A stretch of DNA of 63,410 nucleotides from Methanomassiliicoccus luminyensis B10 (GTDB lineage: Archaea; Thermoplasmatota; Thermoplasmata; Methanomassiliicoccales; Methanomassiliicoccaceae): NCBI RefSeq assembly GCF_000308215.1, contig NZ_CAJE01000005.1, positions 1 to 63,410 on the forward strand, given 5' to 3'. The position numbers and the translations under genes were made by a program. Below, one piece after another: positions 9,984 through 59,309 of this stretch (the first letter of the stretch is position 1; each line of letters starts with the position of its first letter). The notes under the pieces were generated by a model. It had not been told where the DNA came from. It was given only the letters and a program-made list of their open reading frames with translations, and searched no databases.

Positions 9984-10382
9984 ATGGGAAAAATGTACTT
10001 TGACATCGCGCAACTGACCTGCGATATAGACCGCAGGCGAATCCTTTCGGCAACCGACGTTCGGCCAAGGTCGGTAAAGGATATCGCCAAGGCCTGCCAC
10101 CTATCCCTCTCCCGTTGCTACCGCCTCATCAAGGAGATGGAGGAGAGCGCGATCATCAGGCGTGCGGGCGTGGACAAGCGGGAGGCGATGTACATATCCA
10201 ACCTGCGCTCGGTGGAGATGTCCCTGGAGGACGACAGGCTGTCCCTGAGCGTGGTGTTCAGGGACGGGACCGAGGATCGCAAGGACTTCACCCCCCAGGA
10301 CCTTGAGAGGGGGACCATCCGAAACATCCCTCAGGAGCTGCTGAGCGGGGAGCCTTCCCGCGAGCCTTCCACCGCTGCGTAG
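9984..10382 (+). CDS. Winged-helix (ArsR-like) transcriptional regulator
   Basis: Small DNA-binding protein. The helix-turn-helix lies in the first 60 residues (RSVKDIAKACHLSLSRCYRL, then a wing ending RRAGVDKR); the C-terminal part is beta-rich and acidic. ATG 9984 is chosen because the TTTATAT element at 9952-9958 lies about 28 nt upstream. Upstream in-frame ATGs at 9858 and 9873, under a second TATA box near 9840, would add about 40 residues that look unlike a folded domain. The 3' end overlaps the convergent gene by 52 nt. Target unknown. Confidence 0.75.
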   Translation: MGKMYFDIAQLTCDIDRRRILSATDVRPRSVKDIAKACHLSLSRCYRLIKEMEESAIIRRAGVDKREAMYISNLRSVEMSLEDDRLSLSVVFRDGTEDRKDFTPQDLERGTIRNIPQELLSGEPSREPSTAA

Positions 10383-10630
10383 ATGGCCTCAGCGATCTCC
10401 TTAGCCTGTTCTTTCGATCCCACCTGCGAGATCAGCATCCTTCCGTTGCGGTAGAAGGTGACCTCGCCGCCGTCCTTCCTGGCGACGACCATGACCTCCT
10501 TCGTCTCCACCGAGTAGCCGCTCGCGGACAGCAGCCCGGCCGCCTTCTCCAGATCGAAGCGCACTATCTCCGAGGGCGCTATGGACATGGCCTCCTGCTT
10601 GCACAGGCGTACTACTTTGAACTTCACCAT
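10331..10630 (-). CDS. Small protein resembling a single TBP-like repeat
   Basis: 99 residues. The segment with GEVTFYRNGRMLISQ followed by the helix SKEQAKEIAEAI matches, in order and spacing, the strand-strand-helix end of one TATA-binding-protein repeat. The upstream helix FDLEKAAGLL and following strands fit the first half of that repeat. It is therefore perhaps a half-TBP fold; a role is not known. ATG 10630 overlaps the stop of the upstream kinase-like gene, indicating coupling. Its 3' end overlaps the convergent wHTH gene. The fold call is inference by eye. Confidence 0.65.
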   Translation of the reverse strand: MVKFKVVRLCKQEAMSIAPSEIVRFDLEKAAGLLSASGYSVETKEVMVVARKDGGEVTFYRNGRMLISQVGSKEQAKEIAEAIYAAVEGSREGSPLSSS

Positions 10631-13683: not shown

Positions 13684-13908
13684 ATGACCGAGGTCGTTGA
13701 CTGCAGGGGATTGGCATGCCCCATGCCCGTCGTACAGCTAGCTAAGAGACTGAAAGTAATGAAGGCCGGGGAGGAAGTAGAATTGCTGGCTGACGCGCCC
13801 GGCTCCAAGACCGACGTGCTGGCGTGGTGCCGAAGGACCGGCAATACCCTTGTGGAGTTCCAGGACAACGGCGGGTTCTTCAGCTACCTGGTAAGGAAAT
13901 CGGAGTGA
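13684..13908 (+). CDS. TusA-like sulfurtransferase
   Basis: About 74 residues from ATG 13684. It has the TusA/SirA signature DCRGLACPMPVV with the persulfide-carrying cysteine in CPMP, near residue 11. TusA proteins pass sulfane sulfur to partner DsrE-type proteins for tRNA thiolation or sulfur metabolism. GTG 13648 is in frame but lies at or before the predicted transcription start. It leads a tight four-gene operon with three DsrE-superfamily genes. Confidence 0.88.
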   Translation: MTEVVDCRGLACPMPVVQLAKRLKVMKAGEEVELLADAPGSKTDVLAWCRRTGNTLVEFQDNGGFFSYLVRKSE

Positions 13909-13912
13909 TGCT

Positions 13913-14215
13913 GTGGTATCGAAGCTGTTCATACTCCTGAAGTCGCCCACCGAGTACCCAGACCTGGACAACCTTACTGCCTTGGGCGGTGAGGACAAGA
14001 TCGGCGTGCTGCTGTTCGAGGACGCCGTCCTGTTCGCGGTGTTCGAGGGCAAGAGGGCTGAGCTGCAGAACGCGGCCGACATCATCTATGTGATGCGCGA
14101 CGACCTTGAGGCAAGGGGTTTCGCGGGGATAGCCGGGGAAGGGTTCGAGGAGATAGATTATCCGAGGGCGGTCGATCTGATAATGGATGAGTACGACCGC
14201 ACTATCACGCTGTAG
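13913..14215 (+). CDS. DsrH/TusB-like protein
   Basis: 100 residues from a GTG start, 4 nt after the tusA-like stop. It is small and of the DsrE superfamily size; the order of strands (LFILLKS, IGVLLFEDAVLFAVF, IIYVMRDDLEARG) resembles DsrH/TusB. It lacks the conserved cysteine seen in many DsrE proteins. It probably forms part of a heteromeric sulfur-relay complex with the next two gene products. Ends in TAG. Confidence 0.7.
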   Translation: MVSKLFILLKSPTEYPDLDNLTALGGEDKIGVLLFEDAVLFAVFEGKRAELQNAADIIYVMRDDLEARGFAGIAGEGFEEIDYPRAVDLIMDEYDRTITL

Positions 14216-14223
14216 GTGGGTAC

Positions 14224-14580
14224 ATGGGAACGCTGACGATCATATTGCGGTCGGGGACGATGATGAACATGGACCCCAATGTGGCGATAAAGCTCGCCCA
14301 TGCGGCCATGTGGAAGGGGCACAGGGTGAAGCTGGTCTGCTACGGAGAAGGGGCCACCGTGGTCAAGGATGGGCAGGACCCTAAGCGGTTCCCCAATATC
14401 GGGGAAATCCTTGAGGTGATGGTGGAGGACGGCCTGGAGGTGGCGGCTTGCGAGGCCTGCTGCTCCGCCCGCGGAATCCACAGGGGCGAGGTCATCAACG
14501 GGGCCAGAATAGGCAGCTTGATTAATGACCTCTCTCGTTTCGCTTCCGAGAGCGATAAAATGGTGACGATCGCGAGGTGA
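14224..14580 (+). CDS. DsrE family sulfur-relay protein
   Basis: 118 residues, DsrE/TusD-like Rossmann-type fold with strand LTIILRSG, helix NVAIKLAHAAMWKGH, strand VKLVCYGEGA. A cysteine cluster EACCSARG sits where DsrE/TusD carries its sulfur-accepting cysteine. The next gene begins across its stop codon, so the pair is translationally coupled. It probably receives sulfur from the TusA-like protein. Confidence 0.82.
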   Translation: MGTLTIILRSGTMMNMDPNVAIKLAHAAMWKGHRVKLVCYGEGATVVKDGQDPKRFPNIGEILEVMVEDGLEVAACEACCSARGIHRGEVINGARIGSLINDLSRFASESDKMVTIAR

Positions 14581-14582
14581 CC

Positions 14583-14942
14583 ATGGCCGAAAGCATCATG
14601 GTGCTGATAACCAGGGGACCCTACGGGACCGAGGACGCTTTCGCCGGACTGACGCTCGCGCTGGCCAGCAAGGTCAGCCACTACGTGCCCCGGGTCGGCG
14701 TACTGCTCGTCGGCGACGGCACCCTGAACGGCCTGTGGGCCCAGAGCTCTGAGGCGATAGACATGCCCACCAACTTGGAGTACCTGCTAGACCTCCTAGA
14801 CCTGGACGTCGAGGTATGCTGCGTGAAGGAGGACCTCCGCTCCCGTGTCGGGGGAATGAAGATCCTGGACGGGATCAAGTTCGTCGACTGGGCGGAGGCG
14901 CGCAGGATGATGGAGCAATACCAGCTCGTGACCACATTTTGA
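14583..14942 (+). CDS. DsrF/TusC-like protein
   Basis: About 119 residues. N-terminal strand SIMVLITRGPYGTEDAFAGL and the following helix fit the DsrF/TusC branch of the DsrE superfamily. Two adjacent cysteines occur in EVCCVKED near residue 78. The GAGGTGA site just before ATG 14583 overlaps the stop of the preceding gene. Last gene of the tusA-like operon. Confidence 0.8.
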   Translation: MAESIMVLITRGPYGTEDAFAGLTLALASKVSHYVPRVGVLLVGDGTLNGLWAQSSEAIDMPTNLEYLLDLLDLDVEVCCVKEDLRSRVGGMKILDGIKFVDWAEARRMMEQYQLVTTF

Positions 14943-14987
14943 CGCGGCCTACCATTGTTTTTTAAGGGGCCTTTCTAATCAGCGTTC

Positions 14988-16715
14988 ATGCTCGAGGTCA
15001 CCGACCGCTCTGGCCTGGCCCGCGCCGGCAGATGGCTTGCCGGCCAGTCCAAGGCCGCCTTCCCCAATGTGCTATTCCATCACTCACCAGTGTTCCCCGC
15101 CCCTCAGTACGCGGAGATGACCATCTCCCGCCATGAGGGACTGAGGATCGACCTGCCCAGCCAGGAGGGCGCGGCCTGGATGCCGGAAGAGATGCTGGTC
15201 CCTCTCGATCAGCTCCGCGACCGCGGCTCGGTCCAGGAAGGGAGCAACGCGGTCATTGTCCGCGGCTCCCCTTGCGGTCTTAATGGCCGGGACGAGGACC
15301 TGTTCGTGCTCGGGAACGCCTTCGAGCTGCGCAGGGACGCCCGGGCCTTCGTGGAAGCGGTGACGGCGCTGCGCGAGGTGGTGGGCTACCACCGTCTGAT
15401 CTACGCACCTGGCATCATGGATCCCAGCAACCTCGCCCTCTTGGTGTACTGCGGAATCGACCTGTTCGACTCATCCCTCCTTCTTTATCAGGCCTCTCGC
15501 GGGCGCGCTCTTATGGTGGAGGGCTCGGTCCAGGCAGAAGAGGCGCCATGGCTGGTCCCTGAGGGCGGCGACATCGCGCGTTACAATCTCGACGCCGCGT
15601 GGAAGGAGCTGCAGCTGGTCCGCCATATGGTCAAGGTCGGCCGGCTCCGCGAGCTGGTGGAGACCAGGGTCAACGCCACTCCCTGGGCCGTGGCGGCCCT
15701 GCGCATCATGGACCTGGAGCACTATGGTCCCCAGGAAAGATATGCTCCGGTGGTGGGGCCGTCGTTCTACTGCAACTCCAAGGCCTCGCTGCTACGTCCT
15801 GACGTGTGGAGGTTCCGCCGCAGGGTCGTGGAGAGGTGGGAGCCGGCCCCCCACAAGAAGGTGCTTTTGTTGATCCCCTGCTCGGCCAAGAAGCCATACT
15901 ATACCTCGAAGAGCCACCGCATGTTCGAGGAGGTCCTGCTCTCGGTGCCGAACTCCTGCGCGGTGCAGGAGCTGATCATCACCTCGCCCCTGGGGGCGGT
16001 GCCCCGGGAGGTGGAGACCCTATATCCAGCCGCGCAGTACGACATCCCGGTCACTGGCAACTGGGACCGCGAGGAGGTGGCCATGGTGCAGAACATGGTG
16101 CGCAAGGCCGCGTCCTTCGGGTTCACCAAGGTCATCTGCCATCTCGGGGCGGAGAGCGGGTTCGTGCAGGATGCCATAGAAGGCGACTGCGTGGACACCA
16201 CCGAGGGCGAGAGCGTCACCGCGCCGGCGGCCCTGGAGCGCATGAGGAACGCGCTGGTGGCGGCGTGCGAGGCAGTGGAGAAGGTCCCCCGGGCGGTGGA
16301 CCGGGTGGAGATGATGCGCTCCGTGGCCAGGTTCCAGTTCGGGAAGGAGGGCGAAGCGCTGCTGGACGGCACCGGTATAGTCGGCAAGTATCCCTTCTTG
16401 AAGATCATGAAGGGGAACGCCCAGCTCGGGATGCTGACCCCGGACCGCGGAATGATCTCCCTGACCATGGACGGCGGAAAGATCCTCATGGAGCGGCAGC
16501 TCAATCAGGTGTGCATGGGCGATTTCGACCTGACCGGGAACCTGTTCGCCGTAGGCGTGACCTCCGCGGACGAGCGCATCCGGCCGGGCGACGAGGCCGT
16601 GATCGTGCGCAACGGCGAGATCGAGGGGGTCGGCGTGGCGGTTATGTCTGGCGCGGAGATGGCCGAGGCCAAGAGGGGAGAGGCCGTGAGGATGCGGCAC
16701 AAGCGGAAGAGGTAA
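14988..16715 (+). CDS. arcS: Archaeosine synthase, alpha subunit type (ArcS)
   Basis: 575-residue enzyme of the TGT-like ArcS family that completes archaeosine (G+) at tRNA position 15 by amidinating preQ0, using lysine with a radical SAM partner in some lineages. The N-terminal half is TGT-like (YCGIDLFDSS region). The central domain has the ArcS motif IPCSAKKPYY. The C-terminus (about 485-575) is a PUA RNA-binding domain (RPGDEAVIVRNGEI). A TTTTTTAA element about 30 nt before ATG 14988 suggests a leaderless mRNA. Confidence 0.88.
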   Translation: MLEVTDRSGLARAGRWLAGQSKAAFPNVLFHHSPVFPAPQYAEMTISRHEGLRIDLPSQEGAAWMPEEMLVPLDQLRDRGSVQEGSNAVIVRGSPCGLNGRDEDLFVLGNAFELRRDARAFVEAVTALREVVGYHRLIYAPGIMDPSNLALLVYCGIDLFDSSLLLYQASRGRALMVEGSVQAEEAPWLVPEGGDIARYNLDAAWKELQLVRHMVKVGRLRELVETRVNATPWAVAALRIMDLEHYGPQERYAPVVGPSFYCNSKASLLRPDVWRFRRRVVERWEPAPHKKVLLLIPCSAKKPYYTSKSHRMFEEVLLSVPNSCAVQELIITSPLGAVPREVETLYPAAQYDIPVTGNWDREEVAMVQNMVRKAASFGFTKVICHLGAESGFVQDAIEGDCVDTTEGESVTAPAALERMRNALVAACEAVEKVPRAVDRVEMMRSVARFQFGKEGEALLDGTGIVGKYPFLKIMKGNAQLGMLTPDRGMISLTMDGGKILMERQLNQVCMGDFDLTGNLFAVGVTSADERIRPGDEAVIVRNGEIEGVGVAVMSGAEMAEAKRGEAVRMRHKRKR

Positions 16716-17102
16716 ACTTCACTTTCGCTCCCTATCTTTTATTGCCAGGTAGAAATATGATGTTCCGGTTTTCGGACACCTCTCCCCCCTCGGGATATAA
16801 ATGGGGCCGCGCATCACAGCATCAGTGATGTGACGATGCAGACCTGCGAGGATGATTGCGGTTGGGAAGAAGTCTACCGCGCCTGCGGAGTGCGTTGTGA
16901 CATCGAAGATGTGTCATCCCCGGGTGAGCAGGGGGTTTGCCCGACCCCCCTCACCAATTCTTTCTTCGCCCCTAAGGCCCGGTCGGAGCGCTGGACGGAG
17001 AAGAGCAGCCTCCCTCTGGAAGCTTTTGCATGAGCTTCCGGCTAACCATCGTTAAGAGGGCCAGGCATAAGGATAATCACTGTGTGGATGCATGTCGCCC
17101 TC
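16716..17102. other. Intergenic region with TATA box and small dyad
   Basis: 387 nt between arcS and the peroxiredoxin-like gene. A clear TATA element lies at 16792-16800 (GATATAAAT), followed at 16813-16831 by a dyad CATCAC/GTGATG with a 7-nt loop. A short cysteine-rich reading frame at 16836-17033 is listed separately with low confidence; the transcript could instead be noncoding. Confidence 0.4.
16836..17033 (+). CDS. Possible small cysteine-rich protein
   Basis: 65 codons starting MQTCEDDCGW with five cysteines in the first 36 codons. It is positioned about 40 nt after a good TATA box. The C-terminal half is unremarkable and another frame is also open here. No family is recognised. Reported because of the promoter and cysteine spacing only. 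Confidence 0.25.
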   Translation: MQTCEDDCGWEEVYRACGVRCDIEDVSSPGEQGVCPTPLTNSFFAPKARSERWTEKSSLPLEAFA

Positions 17103-52329: not shown

Positions 52330-52375
52330 TTCATCCCGCCAGTCGATCGGTCCTCGACGATTCTCCAAATTATTA

Positions 52376-52385
52376 TTTAAATATT
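52376..52385 (+). promoter_or_regulatory. TATA box of the G3E-radical SAM operon
   Basis: TTTAAATATT centred near 52380. Transcription would start near 52406, just before ATG 52412 and 45 nt before ATG 52451. Confidence 0.55.
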
Positions 52386-52450
52386 GGATTTGTAAGTTAA
52401 GCATAAATGCTATGGGGCGATTTGATACTTCGGACTTGAATGGTGTAGAC

Positions 52451-54607
52451 ATGGCAAGGACCACGCGCTTTGTGATATTGGGCGGCTATCTTGGAGCGGG
52501 AAAGACCACGCTGGCCACGGCATTGGCGAGAGAACTGAGCGCCGAGAAAGGACTGTCCGTGGCGGTGATAACGAACGACCAGGGCGAGCTGCTGGTCGAC
52601 ACCGAGTTCGTGAGGAACGCCGGGTTCGACGTCAGGAGCGTCATGGGGGGCTGCTTCTGCTCCGACCTGCCCCAGTTCATCAAGAGCGCCCGCAGCCTGG
52701 TCAGCATGGAGCGGCCCGACATCATCATCGTAGAGCCCATCGGCACTTCTACCAACATAATATCCTCCGTCATCCTCCCCATGCGCTCCATGTGCCCCGG
52801 GGAGTTCAGCATCGCCCCGCTGCTCATCGTCCTCGACGGGACCCGTGTGGACGAGCTGCTGGCAAGGCCGCAGGGCTTCGGCCTCGGCGGGGGGCGCATG
52901 ATCCCCCGGAACCAGGTCAACGAGGCGGAGATGGTCCTCATATCGAAGTCTGATCTCTTGGACAGCGGGACCGTGGACCGGGTCAGGGAGCGCCTGCGCT
53001 CCGAGGTCCCCGACGCGGAGGTCGTGGCGCTGTCGTCGCGCACCGGGGCAGGCATGAGCGAGATCGTCAGGGTAATCCTGTCGGAACGCGAGAGCACCAA
53101 GGTCCGCGAGGCCGAGGACGGCCGCCTGTTCGCTACTGAGCGGGCCGACCTGGGATGGTACAACGCGAACGCCGCGTTCGACGCGAAGGAGCGGTCGGAC
53201 ATGTACGCGTTCATCACCGCGATAATGCGGAAAGTGTCGGAGCGGTTCGACAGCGACAGGATTGCGCACGTCAAGGTTCTGATCGAATCGGACAGCATAG
53301 CGATGAAGATGAGCCTGGTGGGCAGGTCATTGCAGACCGACGGGGTCAGGGGAGGACGCTACCTGACGGGGAGGGGCAAGGTCGTCCTCAATGCCCGGGT
53401 CCAGGGAACGCCCCAGGAGCTGAGGGAAGCGCTCTCCGCGGCCATCCGGTCCGCGGCGGACGAGGTTGGCATAACGTTAGACCAGATGTCGGAAGCGTCG
53501 TTCCAGCCAAAGCCGGAACGGCCCACCATGATCCTGAACATGCCCGCGGAAGAGGCTGTCGGCCCCGAGATCAAGAAGCTCATCGACAAGGCCAAGGAGG
53601 ATTCTCTCGGCGGGGCGGACGTGGACCGGGCCACCCTCAAGAAGCTGCTGGAGATCGACCCCCGATCGAAAGAGGGGGAGTACCTCGGACAGGCCGCCCG
53701 GGACATCTCGAGGAAGTTCTTCGGGAACAAGGTGAAGATCGGCTCGTCCATAGGCATAGACATCAGCCCCTGCACCATGAACTGCAAGTTCTGCTCGCTG
53801 GGCGAGGAATGGGGGCTGGTGAAAGGGAACAACGAGCTCCCTGGCGATGTGATAGTGGGCCTGGTGCGGGAGGTCCTGTCAAAAGGCTTTTTCCAGGTAA
53901 CCCTGCGGACCACGGAGTTCTACGACCTCGACAGGCTGTGCGTCCTCGGGAGGAAGATAAGGACGGAGGTGCCGGGACAGTACCTGCTCACCGCCAACAC
54001 CGGGGAGCTGACGGATGAGGGCGCTCTCAAGCTGTACCGGTCGGGGTTCACCGGCGTCTACCACACTGTGCGCTTGAGGGAGGGCGTGGACACGCCCTTC
54101 GATCCCGAGGTGAGGCTAGCCTCGATGAGGGCCGTGCTGGCATCCCCGCTCATGCTGTCGGTGGGGGTGGAGCCGATAGGGTCCGAGCATACCAACGACG
54201 AGATCCTGGACCGGATCGAGCTGTTCAGGGCCATCGGGCCGGCGCAGGTGTGCGTGATGAGGCGGGAGAACGTGAAGGGGACGCCGCTGGCCGAGCACGA
54301 TGAGATCGACGACTATCGGCTGGCACAGATCGTGGCGGTGACCAGGATCGCCGGGGGGAAGAGGTGGGGGATCGCCAGCCACCCGCTCACGCGGAAGGCC
54401 GTCGAATGGGGCGCCAATCACGTCACCGTGGAAACGGGGGCCAATCCCCGAGAGGACGTCCATGAGGTCGGGGTATGGAAGGTCTGCGACCATGATGCCG
54501 CAAGGCAGATCGTCCACGACGCCGGCTGCGAGGTAAGCACCGTCTCCGACCTAAGGTGCCAGAAGTGCGGCCGGGTCCTGAAGGCCGGCGACATTGCGGC
54601 GGTGTGA
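52451..54607 (+). CDS. Fusion of a G3E-type GTPase and a BioB/HydE-like radical SAM enzyme
   Basis: 718 residues. N-terminal G3E GTPase: Walker A GGYLGAGKTT, metal-site-like GGCFCS (CxC rather than CxCC), switch EPIGT, and SKSD for base recognition. After about residue 350 comes a BioB/HydE/PylB-type lead-in (EGEYLGQAARDISRKFFGN) and the radical SAM cluster motif CTMNCKFC (C441, C445, C448). A barrel with a BATS-like C-terminus and a final CQKC pair follows. ATG 52412 is an alternative start. Product and substrate unknown; it heads a three-gene operon. Confidence 0.9.
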   Translation: MARTTRFVILGGYLGAGKTTLATALARELSAEKGLSVAVITNDQGELLVDTEFVRNAGFDVRSVMGGCFCSDLPQFIKSARSLVSMERPDIIIVEPIGTSTNIISSVILPMRSMCPGEFSIAPLLIVLDGTRVDELLARPQGFGLGGGRMIPRNQVNEAEMVLISKSDLLDSGTVDRVRERLRSEVPDAEVVALSSRTGAGMSEIVRVILSERESTKVREAEDGRLFATERADLGWYNANAAFDAKERSDMYAFITAIMRKVSERFDSDRIAHVKVLIESDSIAMKMSLVGRSLQTDGVRGGRYLTGRGKVVLNARVQGTPQELREALSAAIRSAADEVGITLDQMSEASFQPKPERPTMILNMPAEEAVGPEIKKLIDKAKEDSLGGADVDRATLKKLLEIDPRSKEGEYLGQAARDISRKFFGNKVKIGSSIGIDISPCTMNCKFCSLGEEWGLVKGNNELPGDVIVGLVREVLSKGFFQVTLRTTEFYDLDRLCVLGRKIRTEVPGQYLLTANTGELTDEGALKLYRSGFTGVYHTVRLREGVDTPFDPEVRLASMRAVLASPLMLSVGVEPIGSEHTNDEILDRIELFRAIGPAQVCVMRRENVKGTPLAEHDEIDDYRLAQIVAVTRIAGGKRWGIASHPLTRKAVEWGANHVTVETGANPREDVHEVGVWKVCDHDAARQIVHDAGCEVSTVSDLRCQKCGRVLKAGDIAAV

Positions 54608-54641
54608 GGCGCGCCGTGAACGGTCCCCTCATGGTGAGCCG

Positions 54642-55700
54642 ATGACGATACCTCACAAGGATGCCTTCCTGTCCAGGGTCCGCAACGACCGCTCCGGGCC
54701 CCTGCCAGTCTTCCTGCGGGACCTGACGCTCGGCCTGGACGTCATCAATGCCAGGACCACCGATGTCTTCACCTCGTCCTATGACCACGAGCTCGCCGCG
54801 AAAGCGGTGGCGGCGTTCCAGAGGCTGACCGGCCAGGATGCGGTAGTGGGCTGCATACATTCTGCGGCCTTCGCGGTCGAATCGTTCGGGGGCGTCATGA
54901 AGTACCCGGAGTATGGGGTGCCCAGCGTATCAAGGCCCCCGCTGGGGGACCTTGACGATCTGCCCCGTGACGTGAGCATCGATCCTGTCGGAAAGGCCGT
55001 GGGAGCGATAAGGTCGTATTCGGCGGTGCGGGCCATGCTGCCGGACGTCGCGGTGGTGGCCAACGTGGCCGCCCCGCTGACCAAAGCAGGCGTCCTGATG
55101 GGGATGACGAAGCTGGCATTATGCCTGGAGACCGACAGGTCGTTCGTGGAGGAGGTCGTCGGGCTGTCCGTCGCCCACACCAAGGCCTGCATCGAAAGGC
55201 TGCATGATGACGGGTCCATCGACTGCGTGTTCCTGGCGGGCGCATCGGACAACCCCGACCTGTTCGGACCGGGGGTGTACCGGGAGCTGTCGCTGAGATG
55301 GCTGAGAGTGCTGGTGGACCATTGCCACCGCCTGGGATATCCGATCATCTTCCACCCCCATGGCGTGTTCACCTCGGCGGGGACGGAGGAGCTGATAGGC
55401 GAGACCGTGGCCACGGGGATCGACGGGTTCCAGTTCGCCGAGGACAACGACCCGGCCAAGATTACCTCGCTCATCGGCGGGAGATGCTCCGTCCTGGGGG
55501 GCACCAATGTCGTGCCCACCCTGATCGAGGGTACCGAGGACCAGGTGCGGTCCGAAACAAAGATGTACATCGATGCCTGCAGGTCTGGGAGCCACGTGTT
55601 CATGTGCTCATGCTCTTTGCACCGCGGGACCGACCTGCACAGGGTGTGCGCAATGGTGGACGAGGCGAGGAATCGGGGAACGAACGGGAATGTGGCTTGA
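54642..55700 (+). CDS. Uroporphyrinogen decarboxylase/MtaA-like methyltransferase
   Basis: 352 residues from ATG 54642 (GGTGA 5 nt upstream). UroD/MtaA/CmuA fold: PVFLRDLTLGLDVINA, ANVAAPLT, LAGASDNPDLFGPGVY and C-terminal GTNVVPTLIEGT. In MtaA/MtbA the zinc-binding HxC and a later Cys activate the thiol of coenzyme M. Here the region reads HPHG (no Cys) while MCSCSLH keeps cysteines. It could transfer a methyl group from a corrinoid or act on another acceptor. 34 nt after the radical SAM gene. Confidence 0.85.
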   Translation: MTIPHKDAFLSRVRNDRSGPLPVFLRDLTLGLDVINARTTDVFTSSYDHELAAKAVAAFQRLTGQDAVVGCIHSAAFAVESFGGVMKYPEYGVPSVSRPPLGDLDDLPRDVSIDPVGKAVGAIRSYSAVRAMLPDVAVVANVAAPLTKAGVLMGMTKLALCLETDRSFVEEVVGLSVAHTKACIERLHDDGSIDCVFLAGASDNPDLFGPGVYRELSLRWLRVLVDHCHRLGYPIIFHPHGVFTSAGTEELIGETVATGIDGFQFAEDNDPAKITSLIGGRCSVLGGTNVVPTLIEGTEDQVRSETKMYIDACRSGSHVFMCSCSLHRGTDLHRVCAMVDEARNRGTNGNVA

Positions 55701-55710
55701 GGTGTTTTGA

Positions 55711-56205
55711 ATGTCCAAGGAACTGTCCAAATTGTCGGTCGGGGACGCTGCGCCCGACTTCACGATGCCGAGCACGGTGAGGGGCCGCTACACTCTGTCC
55801 GAGGAGGCCGGGAAGGGGCCGGTATTGCTGTACTTCTACGTGATGAACTTCGGCCATACCTGCACATGGTATATTGCTGACATGATCGAAGCGAGGCCAA
55901 GGTTCCAGGACCTCGGAGTGACGATGGTGCACGTCAACCCGGCCAGCGTGGAGGAGCACAAGGAATGGGTCGAGACGACCGGTTCGCCGTTCGAGCACAT
56001 CTCCGATGTCGATCAGGAGGTCAGCAAGAGATACGGCGCCATAGTGACCAACGAGAAGGCGCCGAAGGTCCTGGGGTACACCAACCGGGAGTTCTACCTG
56101 GTCGATGAGAAGATGATCATAAGGTATATATGGTGCGCGGAGATGCCGGCCGATGCGATACCGATCGCCGCGCTTCTCGATGAGCTGAAAGCGGCCCTCC
56201 GCTGA
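55711..56205 (+). CDS. Atypical peroxiredoxin-like protein
   Basis: 164 residues, thioredoxin fold with APDFTMPS and FYVMNFGHTCTW at the active-site position. Relative to peroxiredoxins the Pro and Thr of PxxxTxxC are Val and Gly, while Cys is kept; a second Cys is at IWCAEM near residue 145. It resembles the gene at 17103. It follows the methyltransferase by 10 nt, so is cotranscribed. It may act as a thiol carrier or reductase for the pathway rather than a peroxidase. Confidence 0.82.
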   Translation: MSKELSKLSVGDAAPDFTMPSTVRGRYTLSEEAGKGPVLLYFYVMNFGHTCTWYIADMIEARPRFQDLGVTMVHVNPASVEEHKEWVETTGSPFEHISDVDQEVSKRYGAIVTNEKAPKVLGYTNREFYLVDEKMIIRYIWCAEMPADAIPIAALLDELKAALR

Positions 56206-56481
56206 CCGACGGGGCCGCGGTGGAGCGGCCGGTGGCTTTCCCCCGCCGCACCCTGGAGGCATTCTGCATGCTCTCACCCATTGTTGAATCACTCCTTGCT
56301 ATTGTCCGTCGAGTTCGGTTATGCCGATCGCCGCCGCCCCCGTTCGATCGTATCGCGACTTCGGTGACATCGAAATGCAGGCGCCAAATCCGTTTAACTG
56401 CGATTACATATTTTATATTTTTAAATTTACTAATTGATTTTGTACTAAAATTTCATATACTTTTCATAAAATGCCAACCCG

Positions 56482-57378
56482 ATGGATGCGGGCCAACTGT
56501 TCCGAGCCAGAGATAAAAAAATCTTAGCAATTGTTAATAGCAGTGAGGAAAATATTTTTCAGATAAAAGATAATAAATATAGTAGTTCTGCAAAGAAATT
56601 ACTAATATTCATATCTGGAATTTTATTCGTCATTTTCATCTGGTATCTGGTTGCTGGGATATACAATGCTTTTTTCAGCGTGTCGGTCAACTTCCCTGAC
56701 CCGGCAACAACCTTCGAGAGGTTGTGGAAGTTCCTTTCAACGAACTACAAGATCCTCGGGGCGAGCATCTACACGCATCTGACGGCCAGCTTGGGGAGGT
56801 GGTTCCAGGGGTTCCTGACCGCGTTCGCCATCGGGATGGTGCTCGGGACCGTGCTGGGAAGCAATGAGCGGCTGTACCAGTTCGGCATTGTTCCGGTGAA
56901 CGTCCTGCAGCTGATCCCCGGCCTTGCGTGGTACCCGGTCACCATCCTCCTCTTCGGGTTCGGGGAGGATTCCGCGATATTCATCATAGCGATCACCGCC
57001 ATATCGCCCATCGCTATCAACATCGCCAACGGGTTCAGGCGCGTCCCCAAGGTCAACATGCGCGTTGCCAGGATGTCCGGGAGGTCCAGGCTTGAGACGT
57101 TCACCGAGGTCCTGATCCCCTTTTCCGCGCTGGACATCCTGGCGGGGCTGCGCATCGGGATGGCCAATGGATGGAGGATGCTCATAACCGCCGAAATGAT
57201 CGTGGGGGTCGCGGTCGGCCTCGGCTATGCCATCCAGACGACCACGGCATATCTTGACTACCCAGCGGCCTTTGCCAGCATCGTTCTGATCTGCGTGATC
57301 GGACTGCTGATCGACAAGGTCATCCTGGCTCCCATGGAATCGTACGTGCGCCGCAAGGTCGGTGCCGAGGGGGCATGA
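56482..57378 (+). CDS. ABC transporter permease (SsuC/TauC/NMT1-associated type)
   Basis: 298 residues with about six TM helices and the EAA-loop segment RMSGRSRLETFTEVLIPFSA, as in nitrate/sulfonate/pyrimidine-precursor importers. The first 60 codons are strikingly AT-rich compared with the rest of the gene. It lies 276 nt after the peroxiredoxin-like gene, behind an AT-rich stretch (56396-56475) that should hold its own promoter. Overlaps the ATPase gene by 4 nt. Confidence 0.88.
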   Translation: MDAGQLFRARDKKILAIVNSSEENIFQIKDNKYSSSAKKLLIFISGILFVIFIWYLVAGIYNAFFSVSVNFPDPATTFERLWKFLSTNYKILGASIYTHLTASLGRWFQGFLTAFAIGMVLGTVLGSNERLYQFGIVPVNVLQLIPGLAWYPVTILLFGFGEDSAIFIIAITAISPIAINIANGFRRVPKVNMRVARMSGRSRLETFTEVLIPFSALDILAGLRIGMANGWRMLITAEMIVGVAVGLGYAIQTTTAYLDYPAAFASIVLICVIGLLIDKVILAPMESYVRRKVGAEGA

Positions 57379-58145
57379 GCATGAGCGTTCTCGAGGCCAA
57401 ACATGTTTACAAGACCTATCTGAACCAGAAAGGTGACAAGGTAAGGGTCGTTCTGAGGGACGTTTCGTTATCTATCGAGGAGAACGAGTTCGTCTGCCTC
57501 CTCGGCCCGTCCGGTTGCGGCAAGACCACGCTGCTCAATATTTTTGCCGGGTTCGAGACACCTCTCCAGGGGGACGTGCTGTATCGGGGCGAGAGGATCG
57601 ACGGGCCCTCCCCGAAACGCGCCGTCATATTCCAGGAGTACAGCCTACTCCCGTGGAAGAGCGTGCTGGAGAACGTCGAGTTCTCGCTGGACCGAAATGA
57701 CCTGTCCAAGAAACAAAGGGAGGAAACGGCAAGGAAATACATCGAACTGGTAGGGCTCACCGAATTCAGCGATCAAACGCCCCACTCGCTCTCCGGCGGC
57801 ATGAAGCAGCGCGTGGCCATAGCGAGAACGCTCGCCATGCGGCCGGACGTCATGCTGATGGACGAGCCCTTCTCGAGCCTGGACGAGCAAACGAAAAAGC
57901 ACCTCGACCAGGAGATATTGGATATCTGGGACAAGGAGAAGAGGACCGTGCTGTTCATCACCCACAGCATCGACGAAGCATTGCTGTTGGGTACGAGGAT
58001 CCTTCTGATGGCGCCGTCGCCCGGAAGGATCGTGAAGGAATGGACCATCGGGTCAGGCGTCGAGCGCGACCTGTTGTCCGACGATTTCATCCATCTGAAA
58101 AGGGAGATCCTGGGCGAACTGAAGAAGCACTCCGGGGCCGCCTGA
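57375..58145 (+). CDS. ABC transporter ATP-binding protein (SsuB/TauB type)
   Basis: 256 residues. Walker A GPSGCGKTT, Q-loop EYSLLPWKS, signature LSGGMKQR, Walker B MLMDEPFSSLDE and H-loop THS in order. It energises import with the adjacent permease. ATG 57381 is an alternative start six bases on. Confidence 0.94.
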   Translation: MSMSVLEAKHVYKTYLNQKGDKVRVVLRDVSLSIEENEFVCLLGPSGCGKTTLLNIFAGFETPLQGDVLYRGERIDGPSPKRAVIFQEYSLLPWKSVLENVEFSLDRNDLSKKQREETARKYIELVGLTEFSDQTPHSLSGGMKQRVAIARTLAMRPDVMLMDEPFSSLDEQTKKHLDQEILDIWDKEKRTVLFITHSIDEALLLGTRILLMAPSPGRIVKEWTIGSGVERDLLSDDFIHLKREILGELKKHSGAA

Positions 58146-58172: not shown

Positions 58173-59309
58173 ATGAAAAAGAATACGACAAAAATGATAG
58201 CGATCGCGGCGGTCGGAATACTGCTGGTAGCCGGGATCGGAGCTGCGTACATGGTCATCAGAGGCAGCGGTGACAAAGCAGACATCACCATTGCGGTCGG
58301 CACAAAGAACTACTACGAGCCGTTTTGGATCGCCGATCACTATGGTCTTTTCAAGGATGAAGGGATCAATGTCGATCTGATGTTGGTCAGCGGAGGAGGC
58401 GCTGCTTGCACTGCGCTCCTTTCGGGACAGGTCGATACATGTCTGGTCGGGGCTTCTGATCCAACGGTTCGGCTGATGGAGGAATCGAAAGACGGCAAGA
58501 TAATATCCGGGATCACAACGCCCACTTCGGTCAGCGGGATCGAGTTCGCGATAAGGGACGATGCTATTGCTGCCGGTCTCAATCTATCGCAGCCCAACAC
58601 CTTCTTCGTCAACGGGGCGAACGGCGGGACGGAGGTAAAGTATCACGTCGGATTGGATACCACGACCGGCTATAGATCGAACGTCATTACGTACTTCTAT
58701 CGTGCCTGGCAGAATGGAACCCTGACGGATGAGCAATACGCCGTGGCCTCCACCGTCAGGGGAACGACCGACGGGGTGCTGGTCCATATGGAGTTCGACA
58801 ATCAGGTGATAGGGATCGTCAACGGAGGGGTGGACGCGATAATCGGGGGCAACACCAATGTGCTCGCGGCTAGTCATGACGGCATCTCCCTTCATGTAGC
58901 GCCTTCAGAATATACGGTTGGCATAGCATGCGTCATTCTAGCCTCCGGACAGGCGGTCGAGGAGAAGCGTGACGCGCTCGTCAAGATGCTGAGGGCGTTG
59001 GACAAGGCCTGCGCGATGATCGAGAACCCCGAGACGGTCGATGAGGTCGCGGATTATTGCGTCGAGTTCTATGGTGCTGCTACTTGGGATAAGACCTCTC
59101 AAATGAAATTTTTCGATTTGATCAATTGGGATGTAAACAGGATCGTCGGCATAGAGGACACCGTGGAGTTCAACGCGTACCTGCTTGGCTATGATGATCG
59201 GGACTATAGTGGCCGCTTCGATTGGTCATTTGTGGCAGAAGCGCACGACGAAGGGGAGCTATACATATATGATCCTGAGACCAAGCAGCTGATGGCGAGC
59301 ATGCCGTAG
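58173..59309 (+). CDS. ABC transporter substrate-binding protein (NMT1/SsuA-like)
   Basis: 378 residues. The N-terminal hydrophobic segment (about residues 8-30) is a signal anchor, with no lipobox cysteine. NMT1/SsuA-like domain: YYEPFWIADHYGLFKDEGINVDL, SGGGAACTALLSGQVD, VGASDP and VRLMEESK. Family ligands include sulfonates, nitrate, thiamine-pyrimidine precursors and phthalate. The ligand here is not predicted. It is 27 nt after the ATPase gene and ends in TAG. Confidence 0.88.
   Translation: MKKNTTKMIAIAAVGILLVAGIGAAYMVIRGSGDKADITIAVGTKNYYEPFWIADHYGLFKDEGINVDLMLVSGGGAACTALLSGQVDTCLVGASDPTVRLMEESKDGKIISGITTPTSVSGIEFAIRDDAIAAGLNLSQPNTFFVNGANGGTEVKYHVGLDTTTGYRSNVITYFYRAWQNGTLTDEQYAVASTVRGTTDGVLVHMEFDNQVIGIVNGGVDAIIGGNTNVLAASHDGISLHVAPSEYTVGIACVILASGQAVEEKRDALVKMLRALDKACAMIENPETVDEVADYCVEFYGAATWDKTSQMKFFDLINWDVNRIVGIEDTVEFNAYLLGYDDRDYSGRFDWSFVAEAHDEGELYIYDPETKQLMASMP

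Follow-up and report, generated by a model that had tools for sequence, protein, structure and literature searches.

A G3E GTPase-radical SAM fusion gene and its conserved gene neighbourhood in Methanomassiliicoccus luminyensis B10

We analysed a stretch of 63,410 nt from the genome of the gut-type methanogen M. luminyensis B10 (contig NZ_CAJE01000005.1), hereafter called the window, in which an initial annotation had pointed out an operon for a G3E GTPase-radical SAM fusion, a UroD-family methyltransferase-like protein and an atypical peroxiredoxin. The features considered are listed in Table 1. The operon was confirmed, its coordinates and the gaps of 34 nt (fusion to UroD gene) and 10 nt (UroD to peroxiredoxin-like gene) being exact. 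The divergent C-GCAxxG-C-C gene upstream of the fusion gene was also found where it had been placed, and its product exceeds both the Pfam and the NCBIfam cut-offs. As for the importer, the NMT1/SsuABC genes do lie downstream, but their membership of the same operon is insecure. Precisely, the 276-nt gap that precedes them has 50% GC overall and is AT-rich and TATA-like at about 56390-56470; because of this gap the importer is perhaps a separate transcription unit, and hence the secure single operon consists of three genes, not six.

Table 1. Genes, domains and candidate promoter regions of the locus (window positions)
Feature	Position	Strand	Evidence
C-GCAxxG-C-C family protein, 142 aa	51901..52329	-	PF09719 8e-26; TIGR01909 65 bits (cut-off 47)
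TATA-like AT-rich stretch, candidate promoter common to the divergent pair	52366..52390		inference from sequence
Fusion of G3E (COG0523-type) GTPase and BioB/HydE/PylB-fold radical SAM enzyme, 718 aa	52451..54607	+	
GTPase half, residues 1-361	52451..53533	+	PF02492 3e-24; P-loop GYLGAGKT, GCFC metal-type motif, ExxG (EPIG), SKSD
Radical SAM half, about residues 373-718	53567..54604	+	CTMNCKFC (CxxxCxxC) at 53771-53794, Cys 441/445/448
UroD/MtaA-fold protein, 352 aa	54642..55700	+	PF01208 1e-27
Peroxiredoxin-like protein, 164 aa	55711..56205	+	PF00578 2e-26
Intergenic gap with AT-rich stretch, candidate own promoter of the importer	56206..56481		inference
ABC permease, SsuC/TauC type	56482..57378	+	PF00528 6e-15; best NCBIfam SaoP NF040733, 127.5 bits (cut-off 295)
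ABC ATPase	57375..58145	+	best NCBIfam SaoA NF040729, 237 bits (cut-off 360)
ABC substrate-binding protein, NMT1/SsuA family	58173..59309	+	PF09084 1.5e-10

The first gene does encode the fusion that had been claimed, with a cobW domain (PF02492, residues 8-192, E=3e-24) followed by the radical SAM half. The gene lies in an open frame of 861 codons and shows a coding signal along its whole length, and phmmer and profile searches matched each half to separate stand-alone genes; the GTPase half is 53% identical to a stand-alone GTPase of the same genome (C17:39783-40850). The protein shares PF02492, the P-loop and ExxG with G3E (COG0523) GTPases such as CobW, ZigA and YjiA. The usual GCxCC metal motif of these proteins reads instead GCFCS, with two of the three Cys, and the protein also differs from CobW and ZigA in scoring under both cut-offs and in its radical SAM partner. 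A search of 147 genomes of the order and of the 80 homologue loci listed turned up no further fusion of a G3E GTPase with a radical SAM domain; one candidate, from Gordonibacter (L080), was rejected, its frame merely passing through masked N bases. The fusion itself is thus idiosyncratic.

The radical SAM half had been described as of BioB/HydE/PylB type, and at the level of fold this holds. Its AlphaFold (AF2) model has a pLDDT of 90.4, and the nearest folds by Foldseek are BioB (TMq 0.81), HydE (0.79, range 0.78-0.79) and PylB (0.79), with which it has in common the TIM-barrel layout and the CxxxCxxC motif of the SAM cluster. The Pfam Radical_SAM model did not match the window protein; the domain was recognised by the profile and by the AlphaFold model. 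By sequence, however, it stands at only 17-20% identity to the group and far under every NCBIfam cut-off: 38.8 bits for PylB (TIGR03910, cut-off 348), 38.0 bits for BioB (TIGR00433, cut-off 225), no match to HydE (TIGR03956) at E 1e-3 and no HmdB among the NCBIfam matches. In the family alignment no Cys is invariant except those three of the SAM cluster, the ligands of the BioB auxiliary cluster not being conserved, and the neighbouring genes differ from those of the BioB/HydE/PylB group. A phylogenetic comparison had been suggested, and in our tree, which took in BioB, HydE and PylB, the family forms a single clade apart from all three (SH-aLRT 99, long stem). HydE sequences make up another clade and the PylB copies of the same genome fall elsewhere, so that no clustering with a characterised enzyme was seen. 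The radical SAM enzyme belongs to a distinct family that the libraries searched do not name.

The second gene belongs to the UroD family (PF01208), as annotated, with an altered metal triad. Its nearest solved structure is MtaA (4ay7, profile E=1e-30), on which His238 (55353), His240 and Cys324 (55611) align with the metal ligands. The His-x-Cys ... Cys pattern of MtaA/CmuA is absent and is replaced by His-x-His ... Cys in the window protein and in all 28 of the 28 members of its Methanomassiliicoccales clade. The methylcobamide:CoM methyltransferases MtaA, MtbA and CmuA share the UroD fold, but the window protein belongs to a clade of its own, scores 85.3 bits against TIGR01463 (MtaA/CmuA, cut-off 235.4), and its clade is linked to importers without an adjacent corrinoid protein. 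In fact, a corrinoid query found no such protein in the window, and Pfam and NCBIfam profiles found no Ram activase among the neighbour genes scanned. Genes of this UroD clade are often members of importer operons or translationally coupled to small G3E GTPases. They occur in importer operons even in the absence of the radical enzyme (L310, L313-L315); they overlap small G3E GTPase genes by 4 nt (L043, L045, L303, L312), and a large G3E GTPase lies nearby in L302-L304, an arrangement that would suit a metalloenzyme served by a G-protein. In the third protein the noted alteration of the peroxiredoxin active site is real: by alignment P-x-x-x-T/S-x-x-C reads V-x-x-x-G-x-x-C, the peroxidatic Cys (Cys51) and Arg126 being kept and the motif Pro and Thr lost.

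The gene set is conserved and not accidental, because these gene families co-occur again, both elsewhere in the M. luminyensis genome and in numerous other genomes. An unfused paralogous set (C-GCAxxG, UroD, radical SAM, ABC importer and GTPase genes) lies on contig C17, and radical SAM, importer, UroD, peroxiredoxin and G3E genes recur in varying combinations in genomes G015, G109, G111, G112 and G114. From a scan of genome contigs we also listed 40 loci of closer homologues, from Methanosarcinaceae, Firmicutes, Bacteroidota, Actinomycetota and Desulfobacterota. In 37 of them the radical SAM gene adjoins an importer or C-GCAxxG-C-C gene (the latter in 16), in agreement with a functional set and not with scattered homologues. 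The pathway inferred in the initial annotation, which would import a small precursor, apply radical chemistry coupled to metal or GTP handling and move a methyl or thiol group, is supported in part, as a conserved set that includes UroD/MtaA-type enzymes linked to import. The bacterial relatives have the importer and the radical enzyme without the Methanomassiliicoccales UroD clade, and importer types vary, being SsuABC-like in the window and YnjBCD/Pot-like in L009, L042 and L273.

The initial annotation knew of no described system with this set, and we found no description of it in the literature searched, where selenoprotein papers were covered incompletely. The importer subunits resemble SaoP, SaoA and SaoX of the SAO (Sec-assisted organometallic) system, but membership was rejected: every Sao score is under its cut-off (Table 1) and the window frames have no in-frame TGA of a selenoprotein. 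In Methanolobus the radical SAM family adjoins TrsS (of the Trs radical SAM cluster) and DVU_1553- and DVU_1557-like genes. TrsS is encoded elsewhere in the M. luminyensis genome as well (C24), but the window family is not TrsS. TrsS passes its cut-off in 55/147 genomes and in 6/7 of those with a window-type radical enzyme, suggestive figures but confounded by kinship, and a tight functional tie within Methanomassiliicoccales was therefore rejected. The Type 1 mlp clusters of Kountz and Balskus also have UroD-superfamily proteins of anaerobes with a proposed S/Se-methyl chemistry, but they differ from the window in having a corrinoid protein, a Ram activase and a His-Cys-Cys site instead of His-His-Cys, and, as far as the text consulted goes (PMC10418091), their core set includes neither a G3E GTPase nor a radical SAM enzyme. 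Arsenosugar biosynthesis does not hold up as a general label: of the 8 genomes whose loci have TIGR04282/TIGR04283-type genes, only 1 encodes an ArsS (TIGR04167) above cut-off.

Starting from these gene identities, neighbourhoods, triad and clades, and drawing each reaction from knowledge of the families, we tentatively propose, as a joint model that is possible but falls short of probable, that the locus is an accessory module by which a methylotrophic methanogen imports and dismantles one small, probably methylated, heteroatom-containing compound. The SsuABC-type importer would bring the compound into the cell, where the radical SAM enzyme would use its single [4Fe-4S] cluster to generate a 5'-deoxyadenosyl radical and would then rearrange or cleave the compound. 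The UroD/MtaA-like enzyme would accept the methyl (or another C1 unit) at its His-His-Cys metal site and hand it to an acceptor, a corrinoid or a thiol, whose gene lies elsewhere. The G3E GTPase may load or repair a metal site, either that of the UroD-like enzyme or that of the radical enzyme, and the peroxiredoxin-like and C-GCAxxG-C-C proteins may hold thiols or clusters reduced. Since the window has no corrinoid protein or activase and the bacterial loci lack the UroD clade, methyl transfer is perhaps a side branch; since importer types differ, the substrate is possibly not identical everywhere. The importer may have its own promoter, which we counted against a single module.

Part of this evidence can be read otherwise. 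As a family, G3E GTPases are metallocentre chaperones, and the GTPase and radical SAM enzyme could assemble a metal cofactor or put it in place, in the manner of HydE and HydF, for the UroD-like protein or an unseen client. The fusion, the pairing of UroD with small G3E GTPases and the presence of HydE among the nearest structures are consistent with this; we considered it unlikely, given that it leaves unexplained a dedicated importer present in about half of the loci, that bacterial loci have no conserved client metalloenzyme and that the family falls outside the HydE clade. Salvage of a vitamin- or coenzyme-like compound (either a thiamine-type heterocycle or a sulfonate, for instance coenzyme M), with incidental methyl transfer, would suit importers of sulfonate/NMT1 or YnjBCD type and the nucleoside hydrolase that in L273 and L274 accompanies a radical enzyme of C17 type. 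This is the least likely of the functional alternatives, as we saw no gene for the synthesis of a vitamin or of coenzyme M conserved next to the set and, to our knowledge, Acetobacterium, Desulfosporosinus and Alistipes do not use coenzyme M. Lastly, the neighbours could be coincidental and the fusion a sequencing or annotation accident, as the lack of a second fusion among the 147 genomes and 80 loci might suggest; this is highly improbable in view of the long coding frame and the co-occurrence of the unfused halves at C17 and elsewhere, and is already contradicted by the recurring set.

The substrate could also contain a soft element (arsenic, selenium or mercury), methylated or bound in organic form; the module would then take up a metalloid or chalcogen in its methylated form and strip off the methyl. 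This accords with the SaoP and SaoA matches of the permease and ATPase and with a related Methanolobus binding protein that best matches SsuA and then SaoX, all below cut-off, and with several neighbours: an ArsR metalloregulator, which in L085 and L098 adjoins the radical SAM gene and in L312 lies 2 kb from a UroD/GTPase pair, PadR-family regulators in 7 loci (with a CxC motif in most; in L108 such a regulator is fused to the radical enzyme) and DUF5714 (MbdU-like metal-binding) genes. Moreover, M. luminyensis CZDD1 demethylates dimethylarsenic(III), an activity whose enzyme was not identified and to which no gene was linked (PMC10579292). However, ArsR genes are common in general, ArsS passes its cut-off in only one of the eight genomes whose loci bear 'arsenosugar' glycosyltransferases, and the harder His-His-Cys site has no obvious preference for a soft element. 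We considered this explanation unlikely too, slightly less likely than cofactor assembly and slightly more likely than salvage.

We thus keep the import and dismantling of a small methylated compound as our working model. A distinct radical SAM family with neighbours conserved in many anaerobes indicates an unexplored pathway. More doubtfully, it could be an undescribed anaerobic pathway spanning archaea and bacteria, in which a dedicated ABC importer would feed the new radical SAM family, whose partner is a C-GCAxxG-C-C protein. To this pathway methylotrophic methanogens would have added the His-His-Cys UroD-type methyltransferase and its G3E GTPase, and methanogenesis would thereby receive methyl groups from a compound not yet recognised, possibly a methylated metalloid. 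Two groups emerge from the analysis: a radical SAM family separate from BioB/HydE/PylB whose partners are strongly conserved, and a clade of methyltransferase-like proteins in which the metal site is systematically changed. The gene set is, with others, a testable candidate for the demethylation of dimethylarsenic(III) reported for M. luminyensis (PMC10579292), and, if the module does channel methyl groups into methanogenesis, it would be an added source of methane in gut and wetland methanogens.

The three-gene operon placed here by the initial annotation was borne out exactly when its coordinates and gaps were recomputed (see table). Pfam gave a C_GCAxxG_C_C match at the locus (8e-26) and, downstream, a permease, an ATPase and an NMT1 binding protein. 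Since 276 nt, including an AT-rich, TATA-like stretch, separate the peroxiredoxin-like gene from this importer, the latter may form its own transcription unit. The radical SAM half of the fusion protein matched weakly the models of PylB (38.8 bits, cut-off 348) and BioB (38.0 bits, cut-off 225). Elsewhere in the window, small TusA-like and DsrE-like genes are followed by genes for a 575-aa protein and for a further peroxiredoxin-like protein (30% identity to that of the operon). The window also encodes another small protein, of which copies at L009, L309 and L311 lie close to ABC importer genes, the L009 copy having no family match.

Coordinates of the operon and of other features mentioned in the text
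Feature	Position	Length	Spacing	Match
Fusion gene	52451-54607	718 aa		cobW (Pfam), residues 8-192, 3e-24
UroD-like gene	start 54642		34-nt gap after fusion gene	URO-D (Pfam), 1e-27
Peroxiredoxin-like gene	start 55711		10-nt gap after UroD-like gene	AhpC-TSA (Pfam), 2e-26
TusA-like to second peroxiredoxin-like gene	13684-17579			
Small protein	10331-10630 (-)	about 90-100 aa		
Small-protein copies	L009:6692-6979; L309:751-1020; L311:3630-3905			
Trs-type cluster, contig 24	L154:10714-18480			
Nucleoside hydrolase loci	L273:3017-9295; L274:59-2433			PF01156
Decayed radical SAM gene (G110)	L305:12007-12411	134 aa		
PadR-type fusion (Mailhella)	L108:8317-9978			

The comparison by phylogeny that had been proposed set the radical SAM family apart: in a quick tree with long branches and no HmdB sequence, its 89 members were split off from 11 PylB, 7 HydE and 5 BioB sequences by a single branch (SH-aLRT 99, stem length 2.0), the window protein grouping with six Methanomassiliicoccales sequences. 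Among solved structures, those closest to the AlphaFold model of the domain (mean pLDDT 90.4) were BioB of V. parvula (TM 0.81, 17% identity), HydE (TM 0.78-0.79) and PylB (TM 0.79). In the family alignment the three cysteines of the SAM cluster are the only invariant ones, which gives no hint of an auxiliary cluster conserved across the family. At L089, L100, L102, L103, L114 and L080 two divergent members adjoin each other, in the first four with a C-GCAxxG-C-C gene between them, which suggests a two-enzyme step.

The genome (2,620,233 bases, 26 contigs, the window being contig 5) holds two PylB genes and related gene sets. Contig 17 carries an unfused version, namely a C-GCAxxG-C-C gene, a UroD paralogue (36% identity), a radical SAM paralogue, a four-gene ABC importer of a different type and a stand-alone GTPase with 53% identity to the first half of the fusion. 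On contig 13 a third radical SAM gene adjoins a UroD gene whose motif is the usual His-x-Cys, and on contig 12 permease, ATPase, binding protein and UroD genes form an operon that lacks radical SAM. Contig 24 holds an archaeal Trs-type cluster, with a TrsS radical SAM protein (over cut-off), DVU_1557-like protein, UroD (HxC), corrinoid protein and DVU_1553-like CoA ligase.

A homologue scan across 84,980 species genomes yielded 80 loci, and no second G3E-radical SAM fusion was seen among these or in the order's 147 genomes; one other fusion of the radical SAM enzyme, in-frame with a CxC PadR-type regulator, was found in Mailhella. Within Methanomassiliicoccales the radical SAM gene occurs in varying combinations with UroD, importer, peroxiredoxin, small G3E GTPase and C-GCAxxG genes. 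Of the 40 closer loci, 37 have an adjoining C-GCAxxG gene or a permease no more than 3 kb away, but only 5 of the 32 more distant ones do; the latter often have TIGR04282/TIGR04283 glycosyltransferase, VTT and rhodanese genes instead. In detail, 21 of the closer loci have a permease or ATPase gene within 3 kb; within 300 nt, 18 have a binding protein gene and 16 a C-GCAxxG-C-C gene. The radical SAM-importer operon of Methanolobus and related loci is downstream of UroD, DVU_1557-, TrsS- and DVU_1553-like genes, with one exception in which it is divergent from them; Sporomusa, Acetobacterium, Desulfosporosinus, Desulfobulbus and others have TrsS at another genome site. The contig 17-type radical SAM gene accompanies a nucleoside hydrolase at L273 and L274, the former also with a YnjBCD-like importer, and at L305 the radical SAM gene has decayed to a remnant between retained binding protein and UroD genes. 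Distant members at L116, L119, L129, L126, L137 and L140 cluster with 'arsenosugar' TIGR04282/TIGR04283 glycosyltransferases, and most of these genomes are missing ArsS; an alternative enzyme may serve the arsenosugar pathway, or a family may be mislabelled.

In alignment with MtaA (4ay7), the window UroD has His-x-His (HPHG) for the His-x-Cys ligand motif and retains the distal Cys. All 28 such His-His-Cys sequences fell together in a clade (support 100) that excludes 33 His-Cys-Cys relatives, and its outermost members in the midpoint-rooted tree (L310, L313, L314, L315) belong to importer operons without radical SAM. Because the UroD and small G3E GTPase genes overlap by 4 nt at L043, L045, L303 and L312, we read the pair as a putative metalloenzyme with its dedicated GTPase. 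An O- or N-methyl substrate is possible, since a rule quoted in PMC10418091 fits His-Cys-Cys to S/Se substrates and Cys substitution to harder atoms; the residue considered in that paper, however, is a carboxylate, whereas here it is His.

We tentatively favour, at somewhat less than even chance, a pathway in which the importer would take a substrate into the cell, the radical SAM enzyme would open it and the His-His-Cys UroD-like enzyme, serviced by the GTPase, would remove a C1 unit. That the genes instead build a cofactor is unlikely. Also unlikely, and ranked next, is that the substrate is specifically a methylated metalloid or chalcogen. The metalloid version has its appeal, since DMAs(III) is demethylated by M. 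luminyensis CZDD1 through an enzyme not named in that report (PMC10579292); ArsR beside two radical SAM loci, a Cys-rich PadR and a Sao-like importer point the same way, but indirectly. Salvage of a coenzyme-like compound is the least likely of these. The individual parts have known folds, and no name was found in the libraries searched for the gene combination, the radical SAM clade or the His-His-Cys UroD clade; there is a fair chance of the gene set belonging to a pathway that is entirely undescribed.
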